Positions 1-34,378 of a DNA stretch of 39,941 bases are shown here, in pieces. The notes beneath the pieces are model-generated. The model saw nothing but the letters and a program-made list of their open reading frames with translations, did not search any database and was not told the origin of the DNA. Position 1 is the first letter of the stretch; each line of letters starts with the position of its first letter. Where the stretch lies: positions 1-39,941 of the IMG/VR virus record IMGVR_UViG_3300047463_000070. One strand, 5' to 3'. The DNA is from a virus. The translations under genes were made by a program, and so were the position numbers.

Positions 1-108
1 TTATAATATAATCTCCAACTATTATCATCTGTATTGTATATAATATCATTAAGATAATCTACTATTACAGATGTATAAGGTATAGCAAAATAATTATCCA
101 TAGTTATT
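1..108. other. AT-rich non-coding leader upstream of the structured RNA
   Basis: No open frame here looks like a protein. The stretch is very AT-rich and holds perfect TATAAT hexamers at 2-7 and 39-44, but neither has a convincing -35 box at 16-18 bp, and such hexamers are expected by chance in sequence this AT-rich. It precedes the structured RNA and the rightward arm, so a promoter for that arm is expected in or near it. This is inference from position; no start site can be fixed from the sequence. Confidence 0.3.
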
Positions 109-585
109 CCTATATTTAAGGAGTAGTTCCTAGATCAGAGGCTTGAGCTTTTGGCAATAGTCAACCTTACCACAATGAAGTGGAGTTGACCATTACCAAG
201 GGAGAGTTCCTGAGTCGTCGGCTCTCGCATGTTGGCACTCTTTTGGCAGCAACGCCTCTGAGTAGACGCCAGACTTGCGGTGATTGCTCACCTCCATCTC
301 CTGCTTGGCGCCAAGCCTCTCGGCCTAGTCTACAGGTGCCGCTTCAGATGGCCTCAGCTAGCGGCAGGCTAGACATTTTTTGTGCGGCTCAGTTTTATCC
401 CGACACACAAAAAACTTGCTTGTGGCAAAATAAGGTATTGTCTCTCAGCGCCTCACACTGTATCTTGTGTGAACCGATGAGCGTTCTCCTCAGCCACGAC
501 TCATTGGTATCATCACTTGTTTTCCCTGGCAAGTGGAAATAGGCCCCCCCCGCTGTTTTTAACGGACCCAGCGGGGGGGGCTTTA
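109..585 (+). ncRNA. Candidate large structured non-coding RNA (GOLLD/ROOL-like context)
   Basis: The stretch is more GC-rich than its flanks and its reading frames give implausible Cys/Ser/Leu-rich peptides. By eye it folds into consecutive hairpins: 148-202 (helices 148-154/196-202, 156-158/192-194, 160-165/185-190, 170-173/180-183), 202-226, 279-292 (GGTGA, loop TTGC), 303-316 (loop GCGC), 328-374 (328-332/370-374 and 337-342/361-366), 376-414 (9 bp plus a 3-bp inner helix), 416-428, 453-472, 473-508 (9 bp with one G-U, plus an inner 3 bp) and 514-535. It ends in the terminator at 543-581. A tentative closing helix joins 109-117 to 537-543. Parts are internally repeated (CTTTTGGCA at 148 and 240; GTTCCT at 126 and 206). 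A tRNA follows at 591. Known phage RNAs GOLLD and ROOL are long, ornate and lie near tRNA genes; membership in either, or a new family, is not established. The 5' end is uncertain. Confidence 0.6.
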
Positions 586-679: not shown

Positions 680-976
680 ATGGAGCATCAAGTGGATAAG
701 ACAAAAAAATTTAAATGGATTGATTTAAAAATTGATAATGATATTCTAATTCCAAAGATAAATACAAATCCATACCAAACAGGTAATACAGAAATTAGAT
801 ATAAACTTCCATTAGATAAAATGGAAGTCGGAGATAGTGTTTTTATTCCCAACGCCAAGCAACCACCAAGTTCAAGAATGTATAAACTTAAAATGACAAA
901 AGGATATTTGTTTTCTTATAGAAGAGTTAAGGAAAATGGCGTTGAAGGAATTAGAATGTGGCGCGTCTTATATTAA
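680..976 (+). CDS. Small phage protein, paralogue of the 3609-3950 product
   Basis: This is a 98-residue hypothetical protein. The frame stays open into the tRNA, so the first plausible start is ATG680, two bases after the tRNA CCA, with no clear Shine-Dalgarno sequence; an internal Met before VGDSVFIP is an alternative. The second half reads K-M-E-V-G-D-S-x-x-I-P, then a basic stretch, then R-M-W-R-V near the C-terminus. The same pattern (K-M-E-I-G-D-S-F-x-L-P ... V-R-V-W-R-V) is in the product of 3609-3950, so the two are probably paralogues within this phage. A small beta-rich, possibly nucleic-acid-binding fold would fit the basic content, but function is unknown. The N-terminal half is Lys/Asn/Ile-rich and AT-rich. 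Confidence 0.6.
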   Translation: MEHQVDKTKKFKWIDLKIDNDILIPKINTNPYQTGNTEIRYKLPLDKMEVGDSVFIPNAKQPPSSRMYKLKMTKGYLFSYRRVKENGVEGIRMWRVLY

Positions 977-3067: not shown

Positions 3068-3358
3068 ATGAGTGGTCAATATCCTCCCGGCGGCGTTCTG
3101 TTTCCGAACCGCCGCAAGACTTCCGATAAGCATCCTGACTTCACCGGCAATTTGGAAATCTCACGCGACCTATTGACCGAGTTGGTGGAGGCCGCGAAGG
3201 GCGGGAAGGAAATCAAGATGGATGTCAGCGCCTGGACAAAGACCGGAAAATCCGGGCAGAAGTTTCTTTCGCTTACAGCGCGTAAGCCTTTTGTCTCAAG
3301 CAGTAATGGCAACAACGGCGCCTCAAATAATAACGTGGACGACGAAATTCCGTTTTGA
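3068..3358 (+). CDS. Small SSB-like protein with acidic C-terminal tip DDEIPF
   Basis: The start ATG3068 follows AAGG overlapping the ERF stop and gives 96 residues. The body contains PPGGVLFPNRRKTSDKHPDF, then a region ending in WTKTGKSGQKFLSLTARKPF, and then an Asn/Ser/Gly linker. The last six residues, DDEIPF, closely match the DDDIPF tip with which bacterial single-strand-binding proteins recruit repair and replication enzymes. Position after exonuclease and ERF, size and tail suggest a small OB-like ssDNA-binding protein acting in the same recombination or replication step. The OB fold is inferred, since the body is short and divergent from canonical SSB. Confidence 0.65.
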   Translation: MSGQYPPGGVLFPNRRKTSDKHPDFTGNLEISRDLLTELVEAAKGGKEIKMDVSAWTKTGKSGQKFLSLTARKPFVSSSNGNNGASNNNVDDEIPF

Positions 3359-6545: not shown

Positions 6546-6572
6546 GATAAAGTCAAAAAATATTGACTTATC
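6546..6572. terminator. Bidirectional hairpin between the converging arms
   Basis: GATAAAGTCAA (6546-6556) pairs with TTGACTTATC (6563-6572) with one bulged A and a six-base loop. It lies between the last rightward gene and the end of the giant leftward gene, and overlaps the stop codon of the latter. A-rich and U-rich flanks on the two strands would let it stop transcripts from both directions. Confidence 0.65.
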
Positions 6573-9500
6573 TTTGAGCCATTGCCTTATCACCAAGCAA
6601 TGTAAGCTCTTTCTGAATACGAAGCCTAGCTTCAATCAATGGCTGCAATAGCTCTCTTTTCTTAGCTGGAGAGAGAGTTCCAGTTCTATCTTCTGTAATG
6701 ACTCTTTCTGCCTTAGAGATTTTTGACAATTGTTGTGTGGCCTTCTGCATAATATCTTTAAATTGCAGATACATACCCTTTTGTTCAAGAAGCTGCTTTA
6801 ATCCTTCAACATCACCGCTCGTCTTCATGTCTCTTGCGTATCTAACCGTCTCTTCAACATTCTTTCTAAGATCATTGAAGCTATCAGCCCACATTCCACC
6901 TCTTTGACCAGTATCTTTTACGAAACGATTCAATCCAGCAAGATTGGCTCCAATGCTTTGCCAATCTTGAGGATCCCCAAATGCGCCTGTTGGCTTTGAT
7001 GGAATAAAACCAGACTTTGCAAGGATACTATCCATTGCAGTCAATATCATAGTTCCAGCAGTTCCAAGATAACCTTCTAAAAGATGCTGTGCTTTTACAG
7101 GACTGATTGCGCCCAACGCTCCAATAATCGGAACGTCCTTCAATCCTGTATCCCGAACAACACTCAAAGCAGATGATATGGCTTTTGCTGCTTCAGAAGT
7201 ATTTCTATTTATTCTTGCTTCAATGGGCATTTTTGATTGAGAAAAACTTTCAATCGGCCTACCTCTGAATACGTTATAATTTGAAATCACTTCTCCAACC
7301 GGCAATGCGCCAGCAGGAAGCGGAGTAAAGCCAAATGTGTTCATAAACATACGTCCAAACCCTTTGGCAAAAGACGGGCTATGTTCTTGGGATAATTTTC
7401 TATAAATAAAAACTGGAAGAGCGCCAAACCAAGTTCCGACTTCAAAGCCCCTAGGGAGTTGGACAGCATTGCCATTAATATAAAACAATACGTCGTTGTT
7501 TAAAATATTATCTAATGATTCATTCTTCCATGCTTCAGGATCAGATGCTTCAGCCATCATTGCTGCAAGCATCGAGAAAAATCCAACAACAGCACCACGA
7601 AGCATGATTTCTTTGGGCATCCAAAGAAGTCTTTGTCCGTTTGGCTTGCCTTCGTATAAGCGATACATACCTTGTAGTTTGGCATTTAAGAACGGAACCA
7701 TTGGGATCATAGATGCCAACGTGGCTCCAAGAAATCCTTCACCAGATCCACGACGACCAAAAGGAGCAAGATTATATGCAGCCCATGATGCTTCTCTTTT
7801 TGTTTTGCCTTCAGAAAGCAGACGATCATATATCTTGGTTCGTTCAGCAAATTCAGTGGCCTCACTTATCCTTTGTAAGCCATCAATTCCTTGCTTAATA
7901 CGATCCATAAAAGTTGCTTCACCACCAGCAATTCTCATCTGACGAGCAAATGCCTTTGCTACATCCTTCTCATTCATTCCATATGTATAACCACCAAATC
8001 CTGTCATGGCGGAAATTTCTCTAGCCTTTAAGCTGCCTCCTTTTTTTATGTTTTCCAGAAGTGCTTTAGAAGTTGATGACATGAAAGGCTGCGCTTCTTG
8101 AGCGTAGGCAACAACCTTTCCGCGCCATAGGTTGGCAAGCATAAAAGGAGGAGTAAGAGTAATGGAATTTCTAAAGAAGCCAGCAAACCTATCTAATGCT
8201 CCAACGATACCTTGTCTGTTTTGTGATGGGATTGCAGTTAAAGCAGCAAATAAAGCACCGTCATCAACAATGTAATGTTGCTCTTTTCCATTCTGCCTAA
8301 AGGACACAACTCTTTCATCTTTAGCAAACTTGCCAGAAATCTGACGGGTTAAGCCTGCAATTTTCATTAAATCTGTCACTTCTTTCATAGCGACATTCTT
8401 CATGCCAGCCCGAAGAAGATGATCAGCATTCTTGAAAATATTTTGATACAAGTCTCCAATAGCACCTTCTCCACCCCTCAATGGATGAGGAAAGGCTTTT
8501 GGATTGCTAATACTTCTAGTCATTAACGGCCCGAGAGTGGCTTGCGGAGAACTCGCAATATCACTCTCAATCTGACGATAATACGGGGTATAGAACATGC
8601 TATTTAATTCATTTGCAGTCTTTTGATCTATCAATCCTGTATCAAGAGCAAACTTGATTAAACCCTCATTGAATTTCTGAAGGTCATTTGTAACATTTTT
8701 CCATTCAGGACGAGAGGCATTATACTTCTTGATAACATCATTCACTTCTGAATCAGTGATATTGAAGAAGCCTTTACGACCCTTCGCACGCAAGTCTTTT
8801 TCTCTCAAAGCAACAGCATATAATTGAAACTCTTTTACCTCACTATCCTTAACTCTATTACCAAAAATATCGCTTAAAGATTTGCTGCCTTTTACAAAAT
8901 CAATATCTCCGGTTTTTGGATCATAGCTAATCATGCCATGACTAATTAATTGTTCTAATCTTCCTGTGTTCTGAAGAGCAATTTCCAATGCTTGAGCGGC
9001 TGATCTACCACCGAACTTTCCTTGTTTGCGAAGGAGATTTTCAAGCAACCAGACAGGATAGGCTTTATTAAACACATTCCTTTGTAATGCGTCTCTATAT
9101 CTCTCGCCTTCTCTAGCGCCAGTTAATGTAGCGCCCATACGGCTTAGTAGGCTTCTCTCGGCAATGGGAGCGCCTGTAACCTTCTGTAGAGTGGATGAGC
9201 CTGGAGGAGCCGCTTTGCGAACTGCATACTGACTTACATCACGGGCGGAATACTGAGGCTCTCTTTCTATAATACCAATCTTACTCTTCAACGAAACATC
9301 TGATGTATCTGCAACACCACGTTCAGTTAAAGCCTGCATTCTGGAACCAGTAGCGCGGATGCCAGATATTTCTGAAATATCTGGATGCTGCTGCTTCAAG
9401 AATCCAAATACGCGATCCTTTAGAGACTTAACCTGATCATACCCAATCCGAACGCCATCTTCATAGCGGCTTCCTTTGGGCGCGGAAGTTCGATATTTAA

Positions 9501-12500
9501 ATGGGTTCTTGCCAATCTGAATTGCATCAATAGAATTTACATTAGCTCTATTTCCATCAACGCTAACCGAAATACCCAAATAACCACCACTATTTAAGTC
9601 AGCAGCAAATTCATAAACATTAACGTCTCGGTTTACTGATTCATCTAAAGTGGTGCCTTGATACACTAATTCTGGCGCTGATACTGTATCTCCTCTAGCT
9701 GAATATTGAATATTCTGCGATACATCCTGAGTGACCTTCTGAAAATTTGCATCTGTAATAGGATAGGTCTTGCCCTCAAAAGAGGCTGTTCTTGGTTGAG
9801 CAAAAATTTCATCAAATGTCTTAAACCCGTCGCCATTCAAAGCGGACTTTGTTCTGGTGAACAGGCTTTTCATAAAATTGGAAAAACGAAGATAGGCTGG
9901 TTTGATACCAGTTACAGGGGCGCCACGACGATTAGCATCATACAAAGAAGCAAAAGCATATGCTTGCGCTTCTTGCGGCGACATCAGGTTTGGTAAGCTG
10001 CTTTCTAGTTTATTCCAATATGTGTTGCCATCAGCATCTTTAATTAGCTTCAGCTTGTTAATAATGCTCTTATCAATTTCAGTGATATACATGCCTTTGG
10101 AGACATTTCCATTAGCATCCGTCATATCATGAGTGGCTTTAAAGTTATCATTTATCATTTTATTGAAGTTTGGATCGTATTTTCTATAATAATCTTGCAA
10201 TACATGATAGGCTTCATGAACACCAGTTTCATGAATAATAGGCATCATATTTTCCGCAAGAGAAATGCGGATTAATCCTTTTGAAGCAACACCATCCTTC
10301 ATGGAAGGCGCAACTCTTAAACCTTGAACAGCCTGACCTTGAGTGCCGCCAGACTTTGCGGCAGCATCTAAATCTGAAGCAAATAAATGATTAACAAACT
10401 CAATTTCATGATTTGCGGTTTGAGGGAGAAGTCGATTGACTTCATTAGCCAAAAGAAAGGCTGTGTATACCTGCTGATTGCTGAATGTTCTATCATTAAT
10501 GGCTTTTCGCACACCATCAGCAGCACTTTTTCCTTGCTCACCTCGCGCTTCTAATTTAGCCAAAAAGTCATCAATAACCTTATTGGCTTTGACAGTAAGC
10601 GCGGGTGATGGAGCCTGCGTTCTCCACGGAGCCGTTGGAGCTTCTTCTGCTTGTCTGGTTGTATCTGATGTAACATCCGCCTGCGTGGCGGTATCTGCTT
10701 GCGCGCCCTCTCGTCTAGCTGAAAATTGGCTTTCTCCTGTATAACCAAAATCTGGACGGGCGGCTTCTCCTTGCCAAGTTTCAGATCGAGTTTGAGCATT
10801 ACCTTCTCCAGTGCTTACAATAGGAGGTAATGCGGCCTCTCCCGTCCAAGGTTCCGCTTCTGGCTTTGGAAGAGGTGGTTGTGGAGGAGGCTTCGGAACA
10901 GTCGATGCTTCAGTAGAGATAGTTCTGCCTGGACGCCGAATAATGGCATTTTCAGGCAAAGAAAATGCGGCGCCACTTTCCATATCTGTTACACGGAAAA
11001 AGCGACGACCACTTTCATCTGTATCAGTTAGTCCCTCCAGTTGAATGGGAACCATTCTTCCAGCCTTCTTATTGGGGCTGGGCTGAAGGTAAAAAAACGA
11101 ACTTTCAACACCGGGCTGTTGATTAGCTGCCCCCGTAATAAGGTTTTCCATTCTGGCATTTGGATCAGGAGCAGCCAGAAGTTTTGGAGCCGGTGGAACT
11201 GGAATGTTAAATTCATCTTTGATGTTTTGGATATCAAAAATACTGAGTTCTTTTTGCAATCCAACTCGGGGACGCTCTAATGTCGGAATTTTCTTTTGTA
11301 AGTTATCAATCTTTTTTTGTATTTTCTTTGGATTATCTGATGTTTCTAATTGCTGCTCAAGGTTAGCAATTTTACCTTGAACATCAGACAACTCTCTTTC
11401 TAAAAGAACACCACCTAAAGCTAATGTTTCTCCTTCGTTTTTTGTAATTCTGGACAGATTTTTATATCTGTTATTATAAAAATTTAATGCATCATTATAT
11501 GTTAATTCACCAATTGGTGTTACAACTTGATTTTGCTGACGAGCTTCTTCTAAAGCAGCGCGAAGTTCTGGATTTTCTCCTAGAGTGCCGGGAGCAGCAG
11601 GGCGTTCACCGAATATACCACGCGATGCGCCACCAAATGTGCCGCCAATAACAGCCGCGCCAGCAGCCGCTTCTTTGTATTCTCTGAAAGCATCATCAGA
11701 TAATAAGTCTAATCCGGCCTGTGCGCGTTCAAGAATTTGCTGCGTAACTTCTGTTGGAACTTCAGATACGACACCAACACCAATTCCCTTCGCCACTCTA
11801 GGAAGAAGTGTTTTTCCAACTGTCTCAGCAACCTCTTCAACAGGCTTTTTGAATACTCTGCTTAATCCAGTGGATAACCCAAATGTTAAACGATCAGCGA
11901 TAGCATCCATCGCAGCAGATGGAATTGCATAACCAAACGATTTTAACTCATTAACCGTAGCTTGATCTCTATCTATTCCTTGCTTTTGCTGTTCTTCATA
12001 AACCCTTTCTCTATGTTGACCATAAGCAAAAGGAGTGGCGGCGGCTGTTGCTGCGGCTACACCACCAACAGGACCAGCAACTACTGTTCCTATGCCACCA
12101 GCAAGCAAAGAAGCTGCTGTTTGTGGAATTGTGGTAGCTAATGTTTGCCCAAACCATTTAGCGTATGATGATGGATCAGCTAAAGATGTTTGTTCAAATG
12201 ATATTCTTTGAGATTCAGGCAGTGATTCTGCGGCTTCTCTAATGTTTCTTAAAACACCAGCCTTACCAAATTCTGCTAAACTTTCAATTCCTAAACCTCT
12301 ACCAGCACCTTCTAAAGCTGAATACAAACCTTGTTGAGCAACATCAATACCATATCCAATAGGAAAATATGAGGAGTCAGATCTTGGCGCTTTAGGTTGC
12401 TCAATATTTTGTGGAGCATAATATGCCCTATACGCATCACGTAATGCTACATTTTGAGGAACATCATCCTCAAAGGGCATTTTATTTCCATCAGGAAGGT

Positions 12501-12516
12501 TGACATAATATGTCAT
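6568..12516 (-). CDS. Giant polyvalent internal virion protein with HExxH metallopeptidase motif
   Basis: This 1982-residue protein is the last of the virion operon. Visible parts in order: an N-terminal VNLPDG module; an Ala/Gly-rich hydrophobic stretch (about 127-165) able to enter membranes; a coiled coil (about 360-430); a Pro-rich linker (about 540-680); and a zincin-like site H767-E-A-Y-H771. Three Q-(F/Y)-S-A-R linkers follow the pattern of module borders (597, 937, 1088). The long C-terminal part has hydrophobic segments near 1455, 1600 and 1640. Large polyvalent proteins of this type are packaged in phage heads and ejected with DNA, carrying enzymes that help entry or early takeover. 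Protease activity, cleavage at the linkers and any cell-wall-lytic function are inferences. The start overlaps the upstream gene's stop. Confidence 0.75.
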   Translation of the reverse strand: MTYYVNLPDGNKMPFEDDVPQNVALRDAYRAYYAPQNIEQPKAPRSDSSYFPIGYGIDVAQQGLYSALEGAGRGLGIESLAEFGKAGVLRNIREAAESLPESQRISFEQTSLADPSSYAKWFGQTLATTIPQTAASLLAGGIGTVVAGPVGGVAAATAAATPFAYGQHRERVYEEQQKQGIDRDQATVNELKSFGYAIPSAAMDAIADRLTFGLSTGLSRVFKKPVEEVAETVGKTLLPRVAKGIGVGVVSEVPTEVTQQILERAQAGLDLLSDDAFREYKEAAAGAAVIGGTFGGASRGIFGERPAAPGTLGENPELRAALEEARQQNQVVTPIGELTYNDALNFYNNRYKNLSRITKNEGETLALGGVLLERELSDVQGKIANLEQQLETSDNPKKIQKKIDNLQKKIPTLERPRVGLQKELSIFDIQNIKDEFNIPVPPAPKLLAAPDPNARMENLITGAANQQPGVESSFFYLQPSPNKKAGRMVPIQLEGLTDTDESGRRFFRVTDMESGAAFSLPENAIIRRPGRTISTEASTVPKPPPQPPLPKPEAEPWTGEAALPPIVSTGEGNAQTRSETWQGEAARPDFGYTGESQFSARREGAQADTATQADVTSDTTRQAEEAPTAPWRTQAPSPALTVKANKVIDDFLAKLEARGEQGKSAADGVRKAINDRTFSNQQVYTAFLLANEVNRLLPQTANHEIEFVNHLFASDLDAAAKSGGTQGQAVQGLRVAPSMKDGVASKGLIRISLAENMMPIIHETGVHEAYHVLQDYYRKYDPNFNKMINDNFKATHDMTDANGNVSKGMYITEIDKSIINKLKLIKDADGNTYWNKLESSLPNLMSPQEAQAYAFASLYDANRRGAPVTGIKPAYLRFSNFMKSLFTRTKSALNGDGFKTFDEIFAQPRTASFEGKTYPITDANFQKVTQDVSQNIQYSARGDTVSAPELVYQGTTLDESVNRDVNVYEFAADLNSGGYLGISVSVDGNRANVNSIDAIQIGKNPFKYRTSAPKGSRYEDGVRIGYDQVKSLKDRVFGFLKQQHPDISEISGIRATGSRMQALTERGVADTSDVSLKSKIGIIEREPQYSARDVSQYAVRKAAPPGSSTLQKVTGAPIAERSLLSRMGATLTGAREGERYRDALQRNVFNKAYPVWLLENLLRKQGKFGGRSAAQALEIALQNTGRLEQLISHGMISYDPKTGDIDFVKGSKSLSDIFGNRVKDSEVKEFQLYAVALREKDLRAKGRKGFFNITDSEVNDVIKKYNASRPEWKNVTNDLQKFNEGLIKFALDTGLIDQKTANELNSMFYTPYYRQIESDIASSPQATLGPLMTRSISNPKAFPHPLRGGEGAIGDLYQNIFKNADHLLRAGMKNVAMKEVTDLMKIAGLTRQISGKFAKDERVVSFRQNGKEQHYIVDDGALFAALTAIPSQNRQGIVGALDRFAGFFRNSITLTPPFMLANLWRGKVVAYAQEAQPFMSSTSKALLENIKKGGSLKAREISAMTGFGGYTYGMNEKDVAKAFARQMRIAGGEATFMDRIKQGIDGLQRISEATEFAERTKIYDRLLSEGKTKREASWAAYNLAPFGRRGSGEGFLGATLASMIPMVPFLNAKLQGMYRLYEGKPNGQRLLWMPKEIMLRGAVVGFFSMLAAMMAEASDPEAWKNESLDNILNNDVLFYINGNAVQLPRGFEVGTWFGALPVFIYRKLSQEHSPSFAKGFGRMFMNTFGFTPLPAGALPVGEVISNYNVFRGRPIESFSQSKMPIEARINRNTSEAAKAISSALSVVRDTGLKDVPIIGALGAISPVKAQHLLEGYLGTAGTMILTAMDSILAKSGFIPSKPTGAFGDPQDWQSIGANLAGLNRFVKDTGQRGGMWADSFNDLRKNVEETVRYARDMKTSGDVEGLKQLLEQKGMYLQFKDIMQKATQQLSKISKAERVITEDRTGTLSPAKKRELLQPLIEARLRIQKELTLLGDKAMAQR

Positions 12517-15884: not shown

Positions 15885-18361
15885 GCGGGCATAACTCTAG
15901 CGTCGTTGACGCGCTTTGGCTGTGTTGTTTTGCCAGTTCTGTCTTGTCTGACACGCGCCATCATTTCTTTTAGCTTTCTCACACCTTGATCGGTGGAGCC
16001 ATCGCCAAGCCCAGAAACAACATCGCCGGGAACAACAAACTCACCATCAGCAAGTCTCACTTGCTGTTTGCCTTCAATGGTGCCGGGAACCAAATCATCT
16101 AAAGCACCACCAGCACCTGTGATCCGACCGCCATTGATCTTGTCTTTCAGAACAGAAAGAGCGCCAGTTCCAAACATATCAGTGAAGCGGCGGATAGCCT
16201 CTTGCGGGCGCGGATGCTCACCAAGTAAAGCCGCAGTCGCTTCATCAATGAGGTTTTTAGTCATTCCTCTATCTTTAGAAGCTAATCCGCCTTTTGCCAT
16301 TCCTAATGGATTAGAAGAGGCGCCAGTTCCTTGAATGCTCACTCCCGGTGAGAATGGAGACAAACCGCGAATACCGGGTGTTGTTGTTGGAAAACCAGTA
16401 TTGGCGCTGTTTGTTGTTGGATTGGCAGGCAAATTAATGTTCTGTAAATTATCGTTCCTTCCACTCAACATAGACTGATTAGTGGGAGAGGTTGAAGAAG
16501 ATGATGCGTTGAGTTGGTTGCTATCAAAACCAATCAACGGATTTTGCTGCACTTGAGCGGCGGGTGTTTGATTAACAACAGGAGAAGCAACATTAAAGTT
16601 GCTGCCCAATGTGTTAATTCCAGTAGGTTGAACAGCACCACCATAAGCCATCCGAGTTATACGTCCACCACGAGAATATTGTCCAGCGTCCGCGCCTTGT
16701 CCGCCGGTTTCACCGGCTCCTGCGTCGCTAGTATCTCCTGTGGTATCTCCGGCAGCCGCAGCAGCGGCAGCACCAGCCAAGCCACCTAAATCGACTCCCA
16801 TACCCCCCAAATCGACACCTACATTGCCAACTACATCGGGGGAAGAACTATTCATATCACTAGAAGAGTTTGTGGCGCCTAAAGCATTTAATCCTTGTCC
16901 TAATGCACTAACTGCAAGTCCAGGGAGGCCAAGTGCCATTGAACCAAGACCGGCAATCGCTTGTCCAACACTGATACCTTGTCCATTGGCAATATCATTT
17001 GCCATTCCTAACAACCCAAACCCGCCCGGTTGCGCTGCCGTTCCAGGCGAAGTAGGATCGCCAACAGAATTATCTCCAAATCCATATGACCACATATTAT
17101 TGGAAGGAGATAGAGGCTGATTTAATTGACCAGAAAGATCGGCTACTGGAGGATTAATTTGAAGGTTGTTCCCAAAACCGGCACTCAACTCTCCTGTAGG
17201 AGTAATTTGAGGAGAGTTCCCAAAGCCGTAATTCCACTCTCCTTGTTTTGCAGGATTATATCCAATAGGCATTGGAGTTAAATTATACGAAGTTCCGCTA
17301 TTAGCCATTGGAGTCAAATTATACAAATTCCCACCATTAGCCATTTGATACAAATTAGGAACACCATTACCCATAGCCGTTACCATCGGATTATACAAAT
17401 CAGAATTATACAAATCAGGGATAACGCCACCATTAGCCATTTTAACAGGACCGCCTTTAGCGAAATTAGTCGGTCCAGCTACAAAAGGCAGAGCATATGG
17501 ATTGGGAGGGGGGAACCCATAAACAAACTCACCTTCTTTGGCTGGATTATAGCCTTCTGGCATAGTGTTTAAATCCAACGGCGGAGTGGGCGTGCCAAAA
17601 CCTTCACGTAATGTATATTTCTTTTTCTCAGGCGCTTCTGGAGGAGGTTGATAAGCGCCAACACCAAGCAATCCCGCTCCAGTGGCGGCTGCTTTCCATG
17701 GACTTTCCTTAATTGCTCCCCAAAGTCCTTCACCAAATTCTTTTGGATTATTAAAGGCAGATTGAACTTTATCCATAATAGGAATATCTTTTATATCAGG
17801 AATTGAACCTAAAGAATTTGTTGCAAAACCCTGATTCAATGCAATAGGATTCAAACCTTCAGATGCCATAGCTGCTTGCGCCATATCTCCAGCAGGAATT
17901 GCTGAAGCCGCTCCACTAGATATTGCAGATGATGCCGCCGCTGAATCAGCGGCGGCTTGCAATGCTGGTTGAGCAGCAGCTTGAGCAGCATCAAGACCGC
18001 CTTTAAGCAATTCACCACCAGCATATGAAGAAACACCAGAAATAACACCACTCAATAATGAATCAGTTAAACTTCCACCCTGAATGGCTGTTTTTCCTGC
18101 GCCGGTAGCGCCTGCGGCTGCTGCACCAATAAGAGGATTTCCTGTTACTGTTCCAGCAACAATACCTGCAATAGCAGGAATGAAATCCAAAAAGCTAAAC
18201 GCTTCCGGCAATCCAGTGTCAGGATTGATAGTAATATGACGACCAGTAGCAGCGCCTAAAGAAGCTAATCCACGAACTTCACGCGGGTTCATGTGAACCA
18301 GCGTGGTATCGCCATACCTACCATGAGAAGCCAACTGTTGAGCTAATGCGGGAAGCGTCAT
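15881..18361 (-). CDS. Large Gly/Ala/Asn-rich internal virion protein
   Basis: This 826-residue protein starts with HGRYGDTTLVHMNPREVRGL and INPDTGLPEAFSFLDF, a signature I know from podoviral virion genes. A hydrophobic Gly/Ala segment follows (about 60-110). The middle is low-complexity, with repeated MANGG, LYNLTPMANSG and GYNPAKxGExxYGF units (about 265-400). The end carries QVRLADGEFVVPGDVVSGLG and GSTDQGVRKLKEMMARVRQ, which looks folded and conserved. GG-x-V-x-K-M-A-x-G-G-like motifs occur several times (AKGGPVKMANGG, SRGGRITRMAYGG). It is likely a DNA-ejection or tail-lumen component; a tape-measure role is an alternative. Confidence 0.7.
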   Translation of the reverse strand: MTLPALAQQLASHGRYGDTTLVHMNPREVRGLASLGAATGRHITINPDTGLPEAFSFLDFIPAIAGIVAGTVTGNPLIGAAAAGATGAGKTAIQGGSLTDSLLSGVISGVSSYAGGELLKGGLDAAQAAAQPALQAAADSAAASSAISSGAASAIPAGDMAQAAMASEGLNPIALNQGFATNSLGSIPDIKDIPIMDKVQSAFNNPKEFGEGLWGAIKESPWKAAATGAGLLGVGAYQPPPEAPEKKKYTLREGFGTPTPPLDLNTMPEGYNPAKEGEFVYGFPPPNPYALPFVAGPTNFAKGGPVKMANGGVIPDLYNSDLYNPMVTAMGNGVPNLYQMANGGNLYNLTPMANSGTSYNLTPMPIGYNPAKQGEWNYGFGNSPQITPTGELSAGFGNNLQINPPVADLSGQLNQPLSPSNNMWSYGFGDNSVGDPTSPGTAAQPGGFGLLGMANDIANGQGISVGQAIAGLGSMALGLPGLAVSALGQGLNALGATNSSSDMNSSSPDVVGNVGVDLGGMGVDLGGLAGAAAAAAAGDTTGDTSDAGAGETGGQGADAGQYSRGGRITRMAYGGAVQPTGINTLGSNFNVASPVVNQTPAAQVQQNPLIGFDSNQLNASSSSTSPTNQSMLSGRNDNLQNINLPANPTTNSANTGFPTTTPGIRGLSPFSPGVSIQGTGASSNPLGMAKGGLASKDRGMTKNLIDEATAALLGEHPRPQEAIRRFTDMFGTGALSVLKDKINGGRITGAGGALDDLVPGTIEGKQQVRLADGEFVVPGDVVSGLGDGSTDQGVRKLKEMMARVRQDRTGKTTQPKRVNDARVMPA

Positions 18362-18959: not shown

Positions 18960-20818
18960 CGTCTGCCATCCGAACGAACGTCAATACGAGGAATGCCTAA
19001 TCGCCAAGTAACACCAGCTTGATTGCTTTCAGTCCTAAAAGTTATTTCTCTGCCTCTTAATCTAAAATATGTTTGGTTGGTAAATTGCTCAATAGGAACT
19101 GTCGCTGTTTGAGTTATAGACTTGCTTGATGTCTGATTGAAGTTAGAACCGGCAAATTCCTGTGCTTTTAAAATCATATTCAAGGAAGGATTATCGGCAG
19201 AGCTATTTTTGAATGTGACATCAGGGATCATGCGCCAAGCAAAAGCAAAATTGTCACCTTGTCCAATCTCAATGATGCCGCTCTCAATATAAGCATCTAT
19301 GCCTGATGGCGGGTTTGTTGATCCATCATCTAAACCATACTCATGAAAATAGATGTATCCATCAGTCGCGGCTGCGCGCGGGTAATCTTCAATGCCACTA
19401 TCAATCCAGCAGGTGCGAGATAAAGTTCCATAATACCAAACTTGCTCAAGATAATTATAAACAACAAATCTGTCATTTTCTTCTGAATTTAATGAAGGAT
19501 AGAACCACCAAACTTCATTAAATGACATATTGGAGCCAGCGTAGATTTTCTCAGCCTGCCCCCAATTTAAATTATTAAAAACATAATCTTTTACAGAACA
19601 TGGAATTGGAAGAATGCGCCCGTTATATTGGAAGAAGCCATTATTCCCCATCCAATAAACAGAATCATTTGATGAAACAACAGCATTTGGTCCTGCTATT
19701 GTTGTCAAACCAGTTCTTTGAATACCATATTGAAGGGCGCCTCCAATATATTGAAATTGATGAAGCGCAGCGTCAGACCAAACAAGAATTTCTGTTTTTG
19801 TTTCAATGGCTGTAATAAATTCTGAACCTGTTGGTATTCTTAATCCACCAGCACTATTTGTTTCTAATGGCGTCCATATTTCAGGATTACTTGTATCAGA
19901 CCACCGAATTAACAAACGATCTTGTTCGCCTGTAACATAATCAGTGCAACCAAAAGCCAAAATCTTTTCATCTGCTGTTGTAATCACCTGTCTAGCAATG
20001 TCCGGCACATCTACAGCGCCAACCAAATCAGATAATGCAATAGCTCTAGTTGAGGCGCCCAAAGAATGTTGCCAGTAGTATATTCCGCTATCTCTTGCAT
20101 TAATAACTAAGTCTTGCCCGTATGTATCATTGCTCCATAATCTCAAAGAGTTTGAAGCTAATGAAACTGTAGCTGCTTCTCCCCATCCAATATCAGGACT
20201 AGATATATATGCGCCACCATAAGGACCGGCGCCCCAACCATTACCATACACAACGGTGTCTGGCCCTGTATTGATTTGATAAGCGGTAGTTACAGAACCA
20301 CCACCGGGACCAGCAGTTGATGTCGCAGGAGAAGAGTGTGTTATTGTATAATTATCGCCATCAATCACTGTTTGAATTTGATATTCGCCATTAATTGTAA
20401 TTCCACCAACAGGAGAAGCTCCAGAAAAGGTTACAAAATCCCCAGCAAATGCTCCATGAGAAACATCATAAACATTAACTGTTGTTAATGTGTCTGTTGT
20501 TGAAAAAGGGTCAGTCAATACAACAGTTGATCTAATTGGCGTGATGTCGTTTAATGATCCTCCTGTATCAATATAATATTTTAAATTTGTTCCTATTCCT
20601 AAGTAGTAGTTTGCTTCTAGGTCTGTCCACGCAATCATTGCTCGCGCGGTGCCTGAAAACACATTGACGTTGTATTGCGCCCAACCGCCAATCTTTTCAG
20701 GAAAACCTTGCCTAAACCTTACCTTATCAACATCATTCCATGTGAAAGAACCAACAGAAGAATAGCGCGTGCTATCCCTTTGAATGCCTGGAGCAATTTT
20801 TAATTTCAATAATGGCAT
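18956..20818 (-). CDS. Tail nozzle/tubular-like structural protein
   Basis: This 620-residue, beta-rich protein starts with KLKIAPGIQRDSTRY, WNDVDKVRFRQGFPEKIGGW, the start motif of a large phage structural family. Repeated strand-turn blocks follow (TSNPEIWTPL, EILVWSDAALHQFQYIGG, VSSNDSVYWMGNNGFFQYNG), as in a beta-propeller; this suits the T7 gp12-like nozzle at the end of a short tail. I infer it by length (about 600 residues), fold pattern and operon position between fibre and ejection genes. A P22-like tail stabilisation protein is the alternative. Confidence 0.65.
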   Translation of the reverse strand: MPLLKLKIAPGIQRDSTRYSSVGSFTWNDVDKVRFRQGFPEKIGGWAQYNVNVFSGTARAMIAWTDLEANYYLGIGTNLKYYIDTGGSLNDITPIRSTVVLTDPFSTTDTLTTVNVYDVSHGAFAGDFVTFSGASPVGGITINGEYQIQTVIDGDNYTITHSSPATSTAGPGGGSVTTAYQINTGPDTVVYGNGWGAGPYGGAYISSPDIGWGEAATVSLASNSLRLWSNDTYGQDLVINARDSGIYYWQHSLGASTRAIALSDLVGAVDVPDIARQVITTADEKILAFGCTDYVTGEQDRLLIRWSDTSNPEIWTPLETNSAGGLRIPTGSEFITAIETKTEILVWSDAALHQFQYIGGALQYGIQRTGLTTIAGPNAVVSSNDSVYWMGNNGFFQYNGRILPIPCSVKDYVFNNLNWGQAEKIYAGSNMSFNEVWWFYPSLNSEENDRFVVYNYLEQVWYYGTLSRTCWIDSGIEDYPRAAATDGYIYFHEYGLDDGSTNPPSGIDAYIESGIIEIGQGDNFAFAWRMIPDVTFKNSSADNPSLNMILKAQEFAGSNFNQTSSKSITQTATVPIEQFTNQTYFRLRGREITFRTESNQAGVTWRLGIPRIDVRSDGRR

Positions 20819-20829
20819 ATATTACTCCA

Positions 20830-21093
20830 TCACTTAGTAATATTCACCAACCGCGAACCGGCTTCCAGTGCGATGAAGCCATGCTCTTGCAGAGGCTTCC
20901 AGTCAAGAACGTCGCCTGTTTTCGCAGTAATTTCCCAGGTCCCGCCAAACACGCAAAAGCTGCCGCGCGATACGATAGAAATGTGTGTGTTACTGTCGTC
21001 GTGTTGGTGAGACGGTAGCTCGTCTCCGACTTCTGAAAAGTCGTAGATGTTCGCAACCAACGAACCAAACTGACGGGTTTTGCACTCCATCAT
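20830..21093 (-). CDS. Small cupin-fold protein
   Basis: This 87-residue protein has the two short cupin motifs: P-S-H-Q-H-D with T-H-I-S (about 28-38) and G-D-V-L-D-W ... E-H-G-F near residues 59-72, with strands VSRGSFCVFGGTWEI between. Two tandem ATGs (21093, 21090) follow the stop of the (Pro-Glu)n gene with overlap. Cupins bind a metal through His/Glu and have many roles; a stand-alone one in a tail cluster is uncommon. A structural use of the barrel as a fibre cap is as likely as catalysis. The base composition is more GC-rich than the neighbours. Confidence 0.7.
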   Translation of the reverse strand: MMECKTRQFGSLVANIYDFSEVGDELPSHQHDDSNTHISIVSRGSFCVFGGTWEITAKTGDVLDWKPLQEHGFIALEAGSRLVNITK

Positions 21094-33020: not shown

Positions 33021-34001
33021 TTAGGAAGCATTCTCTTTGAGCAACTGTGCAGCATACTGCTCAGTGGTGAGATTAAGCCGTCTTGCCAAACGCACTTGCG
33101 TAGGAGTCAACTGAACCATTTTGCGGTTGCCATTCACGCTACGGGTAGCGGGAGCAACAACGGTTTGCGTCCTTGTCGGCGGTTCTTCCGGCTTAGACGA
33201 TTTAAATCCAGCATAATCGGGAAATCTTTGTCGCACCGATTTGCTAATCTGATCATAGTATTCTTGTGAGGTTGGGTCAATACCTCTTTTGTTTATTAAA
33301 ATGTCACTTACACCGAAGGCATAAGCTGTCATTTCTGACTCTATTTCTCCCTCAGCTTGGAACCACTTATTTCCTTCATACCACTGAAGGGCCTTTGGAT
33401 CAGGTGGCGCAACTTGCTGCTGATTTTGAGGCAAAGACTGTTGCTGTTGCATTGCCTGCTGGTATTGCCGTTGAGTAACTTGATTATATTGCTCAACAGT
33501 TCTTGGAGTATAGGACGCATATTTATCCTGTTCCACAACAGCCTTTTGAAGCTGCTCTTGAAGGTTGAGAAACTGCTCTGTTTCTCCTGCTTCAAATGCT
33601 TCTTTGGCTTGTCTCTTAATTGCTTCAATTTGAATTTCAGTTCTTTTTTTAGCTGTTTCAATTAAAGCATTTTCATTAGAAGATGAATACTCCTTGAGCT
33701 TTTGATTTTCAGCAATGATATGCTGTGCATATCTAATTGCTTCATCACGTTCTTTCGCGGCGGCTTCTTTGGCGCGTCTTTCGGCATGAGCTTTGGCACT
33801 CAAGTCCTTAATGCGCTTCTGGATGTCGTCCTTATACTTAGTGATTTCATCTTCTCTTGCAGAGATGTCTTCATCACTATCTGTATTTTCTGGCGCCACA
33901 AACTTGTTGCGATCCGACTCAGGGGTATCGTCAACAATTTCAATCTCAATATTAGTGTCTTCAGTATCGAGATTGATTTTGGTTTCTTGTGCTTCGCTCA
34001 T
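33021..34001 (-). CDS. Scaffold-like head assembly protein
   Basis: This 326-residue protein is acidic at the N-terminus, then has a long predicted coiled coil (about 55-160; AHAERRAKEAAAKERDEAI and heptad-like Lys/Glu/Leu) and a Gln-rich tract (YQQAMQQQQSLPQNQQQ). A compact basic C-terminal helix follows (MVQLTPTQVRLARRLNLTTE). Acidic-coiled-basic layout and position between portal and capsid are those of internal scaffolding proteins, whose basic end contacts the capsid protein. It overlaps the co-chaperonin gene by four bases. Confidence 0.75.
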   Translation of the reverse strand: MSEAQETKINLDTEDTNIEIEIVDDTPESDRNKFVAPENTDSDEDISAREDEITKYKDDIQKRIKDLSAKAHAERRAKEAAAKERDEAIRYAQHIIAENQKLKEYSSSNENALIETAKKRTEIQIEAIKRQAKEAFEAGETEQFLNLQEQLQKAVVEQDKYASYTPRTVEQYNQVTQRQYQQAMQQQQSLPQNQQQVAPPDPKALQWYEGNKWFQAEGEIESEMTAYAFGVSDILINKRGIDPTSQEYYDQISKSVRQRFPDYAGFKSSKPEEPPTRTQTVVAPATRSVNGNRKMVQLTPTQVRLARRLNLTTEQYAAQLLKENAS

Positions 34002-34378
34002 GCTCTTTTCACTCCACGCGGGTCTTCAACGACCGCTTCAACGGTATCATCATTGATGATACGAAATTCCCTACCATGCACTTTAATCCGGGTGCCTGAA
34101 TAAGCACGAAAGATGACCCAATCACCTTTCTTACACCATGCGCCAGTAGGAAATTTGTTGGAGTCAAGATAGCAAAGATCGCCAAGATCAATTACAAAAC
34201 CAACGATAGATGCCGTTTGTTCTCGGTCAATTGCTTGGCCGGGAAGAAAAACGCCACCATCTGTCTTCTCTTCATACTCAGGAAGAGCGATCAGCATTTT
34301 GTAACCTTGTGGTCTAGGTAACTGACTTGCTTTAGCAGCATCAAACTCGTCAGTTTCTTCTTTGATAGCGAGGTCCAT
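33998..34378 (-). CDS. GroES-like co-chaperonin
   Basis: This 126-residue protein has the Cpn10 pattern: QGYKMLIALPEYEEKTDGGV and FLPGQ (the mobile-loop region), TASIVGFVIDLGDLCY, KFPTGAWCKKGDWVIFRAYS and FRIINDDTVEAVVEDP. GroES caps the host GroEL; phage versions such as T4 gp31 adapt the chamber to fold the capsid protein. Its place just before scaffold and capsid genes supports that role. The N-terminal 20 residues are an acidic extension absent from host GroES. Confidence 0.85.
   Translation of the reverse strand: MDLAIKEETDEFDAAKASQLPRPQGYKMLIALPEYEEKTDGGVFLPGQAIDREQTASIVGFVIDLGDLCYLDSNKFPTGAWCKKGDWVIFRAYSGTRIKVHGREFRIINDDTVEAVVEDPRGVKRA

Follow-up and report, generated by a model that had tools for sequence, protein, structure and literature searches.

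Does the phage genome studied here carry a large structured RNA of the GOLLD or ROOL type directly upstream of a tRNA gene? An earlier note proposed such an RNA for positions 109-585 of our window, the whole stretch of DNA analysed, which is a linear IMG/VR virus record of 39,941 bp from an unclassified bacterial virus. The minus strand of the window carries terminase, portal, virion structural and tail fibre-type genes. The recombination genes are on the plus strand (an exonuclease, an Erf-like annealing protein and an SSB). The interval lies at the left edge of the window, in a gap of 490 nt between a minus-strand ORF (start at 101) and a tRNA-Ser(UGA) gene.

The tRNA gene is where it was said to be. 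It occupies positions 591-678 on the plus strand and encodes its CCA. Three genes follow on its 3' side: a small ORF with 30% GC, RusA (minus strand) and the exonuclease (plus strand). The small ORF (692-976, plus strand) has weak similarity to DUF7303. It probably starts at GTG 692, with a GGAG 6 nt upstream, rather than at the ATG (680) that follows 1 nt after the CCA of the tRNA. On the other side of the interval, the divergent ORF (3-101, minus strand) has an AGGA 6 nt upstream of its ATG and runs off the contig, leaving 33 residues visible. No relative of this ORF was found in phage records. Since the contig end cuts it, its reality rests on 33 codons.

The proposed check for a GOLLD- or ROOL-type RNA was a search with Rfam covariance models. 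We ran this search, and neither the GOLLD model (RF02032) nor the ROOL model (RF03087) matches the interval at E<=10. In a positive control, done for the ROOL model only, the known ROOL RNA of L. salivarius pMP118 was recovered at 130 bits. A scan of the interval against Rfam as a whole also gave no match, either at gathering score or at E<=10. By this test the interval is not a detectable GOLLD or ROOL member.

The interval nevertheless resembles both families in some respects. ROOL RNAs form homo-oligomeric nanocages. Like the interval, they are noncoding, occur in phages, often lie near tRNA genes and are several hundred nt long (the model has 574 positions). Their GC content can also exceed that of AT-rich flanks, as in the L. 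salivarius copy (40% against 30-34%). The interval differs from ROOL in that it has no covariance-model match at E<=10 and no homologues were found. GOLLD, too, is noncoding, phage-borne and tRNA-adjacent. The tRNA-Ser gene at 591-678 in a tailed-phage contig fits the location of GOLLD, but such a location is not specific. The interval is also shorter, 477 nt at most against more than 800 nt for many GOLLD members (PMC12286853), and the conserved 3' region of GOLLD was not detected in it (no model match at E<=10). The homo-oligomeric cage of GOLLD is known from purified RNA and cryo-EM (PMC12286853).

Does the interval have relatives elsewhere? Among 50,697 records of phages and 72,556 of plasmids, blastn (E<=10) gave no homologue. 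Scans of IMG/VR (four patterns at the DNA level plus a six-peptide back-translation) turned up no relative, and neither did GTDB contigs, scanned twice, 398 Pseudomonadota genomes or the whole records of 50 related phages. A search via the neighbouring small ORF (692-976) found no relative either. We also built covariance models from the single sequence, covering the 5' and 3' domains, and ran them against 92 sources; the window itself was the only significant match. The pattern matches in IMG/VR and GTDB did not extend meaningfully beyond the pattern, and the ones we inspected fell within or overlapped other genes. Of two short matches in Pseudomonadota, one lies within a gene for an ABC-ATPase and the other where a different gene begins; this is about the chance expectation for 398 genomes. 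By a rough estimate that assumes independent substitutions, the IMG/VR scans combined would probably have detected a relative at ~90% identity, but only about one in six at 80%. The searches covered records other than the nearest ones to the window; given this limited reach, distant relatives of the interval may exist. With no homologue found, there are no sequences to align for covariation.

Related phages show what else can occupy this place. Their terminases are 71-75% identical (relatives include G013, G016, G017 and G030), and the pair of RusA and exonuclease is kept. Beside RusA, the relatives carry other genes and no tRNA-Ser. A tRNA-Arg, where present, lies elsewhere, and no long noncoding stretch precedes it. 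Because syntenic relatives carry other genes here, the interval together with its tRNA-Ser is lineage-specific cargo. Hence, comparative evidence is limited. In G013 (20387-20992) and G016 (16786-17442), a minus-strand ORF of ~200 residues, a putative free-standing homing endonuclease, sits beside RusA. These ORFs suggest that the site of the tRNA cassette is a cargo hotspot. A known sRNA family occurs on another related phage contig, L002: a Betaproteobacteria-1 RNA (RF02932, 84 bits) at 3228-3348 on the minus strand, in the gap from which a primase/helicase-like ORF and a recombination-type ORF diverge.

The case for a large RNA was built mainly on features of the interval itself, and these fare unequally. 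About ten hairpins had been reported. Ten non-overlapping ones with Watson-Crick stems of at least 5 bp are present in 109-585 (160-190, 202-226, 279-292, 303-316, 337-366, 376-414, 453-472, 477-504, 514-535 and 543-581). Leaving out the terminator, the count is 9 compared to 5.4 +/- 1.5 in dinucleotide shuffles, 2% of which reach 9. At least 9 hairpins are also found in 7.8% of same-length windows elsewhere in the contig. A base composition unlike the flanks holds in part: GC content is 50% at 109-540 against 20% at 1-108 and 30% at 680-976, but the contig average is 44%. The reported internal repetition does not hold, since the best self-alignment is matched by 22% of shuffles and is thus at chance level. 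The repeats are no handle on homology either; a pattern built on them had 0 matches in IMG/VR.

Structure prediction yields a 5' domain at 123-333 on the plus strand, closed by the helices 123-126/330-333, 130-133/325-328 and 137-145/312-320. This domain is a prediction only, and a helix of equal length and span arises in 37% of shuffles. Further downstream, the inverted repeat TTTTTTGTG/CACAAAAAA (376-414) forms 9 perfect pairs without strand preference. It is followed by three consecutive hairpins at 453-536 (453-472, 473-508 and 513-536). In the last two, G-U pairs speak for the plus strand. The 3' cluster as a whole (448-540) is the best-folding part of the interval and is matched by about 2% of contig windows.

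The folding energy of the interval has a z-score of -3.9 including the terminator. Without the terminator, the plus strand scores between -2.6 and -3.0 and the minus strand between -3.7 and -4.6. Windows of 430 nt across the contig average -1.6 (sd 1.5), and the plus strand of the interval is not exceptional among them. At a finer scale, local 60-nt windows show no difference between the inside (mean z -0.47) and the outside of the interval (-0.38), a genome-wide comparison based on sampled windows. Folding and hairpin density of the interval are at most mildly above those of the rest of the phage genome. However, the pMP118 ROOL RNA, a true member of its family, reaches a z of only -1.3. At least one genuine RNA of this kind thus escapes the energy test, and the modest z of the interval neither supports nor refutes the large-RNA claim. 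The strongest folding among the sampled 430-nt windows, with z of -5.5 and -5.1 on the two strands, is found in protein-coding sequence at 33701-34130.

Two individual helices stand out. The first is a minus-strand hairpin at 151-199 with 16 contiguous pairs (two of them G-U), broken on the plus strand by two C-A mismatches. Its energy is -27.9 kcal/mol on the minus strand versus -18.8 kcal/mol on the plus strand. It is the longest uninterrupted minus-strand helix of the whole contig, and a helix of 16 occurs in 0 of 200 shuffles. The minus-strand start codon at 101 follows 49 nt downstream of the hairpin. Since the longest minus-strand helix is in the interval, and in the leader of this ORF, the strand of the interval is ambiguous.

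The second helix is the stem at 541-583, with 15 bp the longest plus-strand helix of the contig. It contains the perfect 13-bp helix that had been claimed as a terminator, and this stem, 543-555/569-581, is indeed there and terminator-like. With its tail the element spans 541-587 on the plus strand and has 13 perfect pairs, or 15 with G-U. Its loop is 13 nt long, its U-tract is broken and its tail, CTTTATTGTT, is moderately U-rich. A terminator consensus scan that allows loops of 3-8 did not list this element. The simplest account of the two helices would be that a divergent gap holds two strand-specific elements facing apart, and not a single molecule of the plus strand.

We therefore arrive at a best explanation that we hold tentatively, giving it somewhat less than an even chance. 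It takes the interval to be a divergent intergenic module, specific to this lineage of tailed phage and not demonstrably a single large RNA, with a leader hairpin on the minus strand and a noncoding stretch ending in a terminator on the plus strand. What can be shown is that the segment bears helices, has a noncoding composition, occupies this position and has no counterpart in those syntenic relatives that we looked at; transcription, processing and termination are inferred. The minus-strand transcript of the ORF at 101 would carry the long hairpin 151-199 in its leader. Long hairpins in phage leaders often act in processing or stability, and this one could serve as such an element. On the other strand, a noncoding transcript running through the right half would stop at the stem 541-583, which may insulate it from the tRNA-Ser or let it pass at a reduced level.

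Several observations support a divergent module. The longest minus-strand helix (16 bp) and the longest plus-strand helix (15 bp) of the contig share one gap; the 16-bp hairpin stands 49 nt upstream of a start codon with an AGGA; and 473-508 and 513-536 hold G-U pairs that fit the plus strand better. Hairpin density and folding near the contig background, and other genes at this site in syntenic relatives, point the same way. As a matter of general knowledge, leader hairpins and intrinsic terminators of divergent phage regions include long strand-specific stems a short way upstream of an ORF and terminator-like stems before the next unit, and they are not conserved between phages. The interval shares these features, although its length and GC content are high for a region of this type. 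For a divergent promoter gap 490 nt is long, which counts against the module, as do the 50% GC island between flanks of 20-30% and the 3' hairpin cluster, which would also fit a dedicated RNA. The segment is without known relative, yet nothing about it demands a new kind of element.

A dedicated RNA would be a single large structured noncoding molecule on the plus strand, about 450-480 nt long, ending near 585 and of the GOLLD/ROOL-like kind but unrelated in sequence. By analogy with GOLLD and ROOL its function might be RNA-only assembly. We consider this unlikely, though worth serious attention: the interval is noncoding, tRNA-adjacent and richer in GC than its flanks, has ten hairpins and a terminator-like end, and its 3' hairpin cluster is above background. 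The unremarkable total energy is no objection, given the z of -1.3 of a true ROOL. What weighs against a single molecule is that no homologue and hence no covariation was found, that neither the GOLLD nor the ROOL model matches, that its repeats are at chance level, that folding and hairpin density are near the contig background and that the strongest local helix favours the other strand. If an independent GOLLD/ROOL-like family were confirmed, it would suggest that large phage RNAs have arisen beside tRNA genes more than once, and a smaller such RNA would be available for study. As it stands, the case mainly calibrates claims of large phage RNAs. From one sequence, hairpin counts and folding energies do not tell a genuine ROOL apart from ordinary phage DNA; an orphan therefore needs homologues or transcript data before being called a family.

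The whole interval could instead belong to the minus strand, either as a noncoding RNA or as a long structured 5' leader of the gene starting at 101. The stronger minus-strand folding and the 16-bp hairpin argue for this. However, the 3' hairpins at 473-536 lose pairs on the minus strand, and the stem 541-583 would then lie 5'-terminally, in a position where a terminator serves no purpose. We regard this reading as improbable.

Just as improbable is a decayed or very divergent protein gene, or passenger DNA that came with the tRNA cassette and has no RNA function. The longest frame (147-542) has 131 open codons, a length reached by 4.4% of shuffles, syntenic relatives lack the cassette, and its flanks differ from it in composition. 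But the ORF at 180-542 within this frame has a codon score of -0.06, whereas called genes average 0.41 and the lowest of them scores 0.02. The frame has no Pfam or PHROGs family match, and tblastn found no relative in phage records (one match at E 0.7), IMG/VR or GTDB. In L214, a match of 24 residues crosses other genes in antisense and was dismissed as chance. Codon score and absence of relatives thus disfavour a coding interval, in line with the earlier note, which had seen no protein-like frame; there is no convincing gene.

One further claim concerned a GCGC loop (308-311) able to kiss a second copy. Palindromic kissing loops are present in OLE and GOLLD (PMC12286853). The 14-nt palindrome at 303-316, GCTTGGCGCCAAGC, is indeed perfect and would expose the GCGC loop if folded. 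Its 3' arm, however, is predicted with high probability (p 0.98) to pair with 137-145, in which case only a rearranged fold would let the hairpin form. As a helix like 137-145/312-320 occurs in 37% of shuffles, neither pairing alternative is established. A new, rare family of structured phage RNA of roughly 450-480 nt, without sequence relationship to GOLLD or ROOL, carried as cargo with tRNA-Ser and perhaps dimerising via this palindrome, is very doubtful.

Elsewhere in the window, an ORF of 1982 residues (6568-12516, minus strand) is matched by related phages at its ends and in its middle, in parts only and at 24-40% identity.
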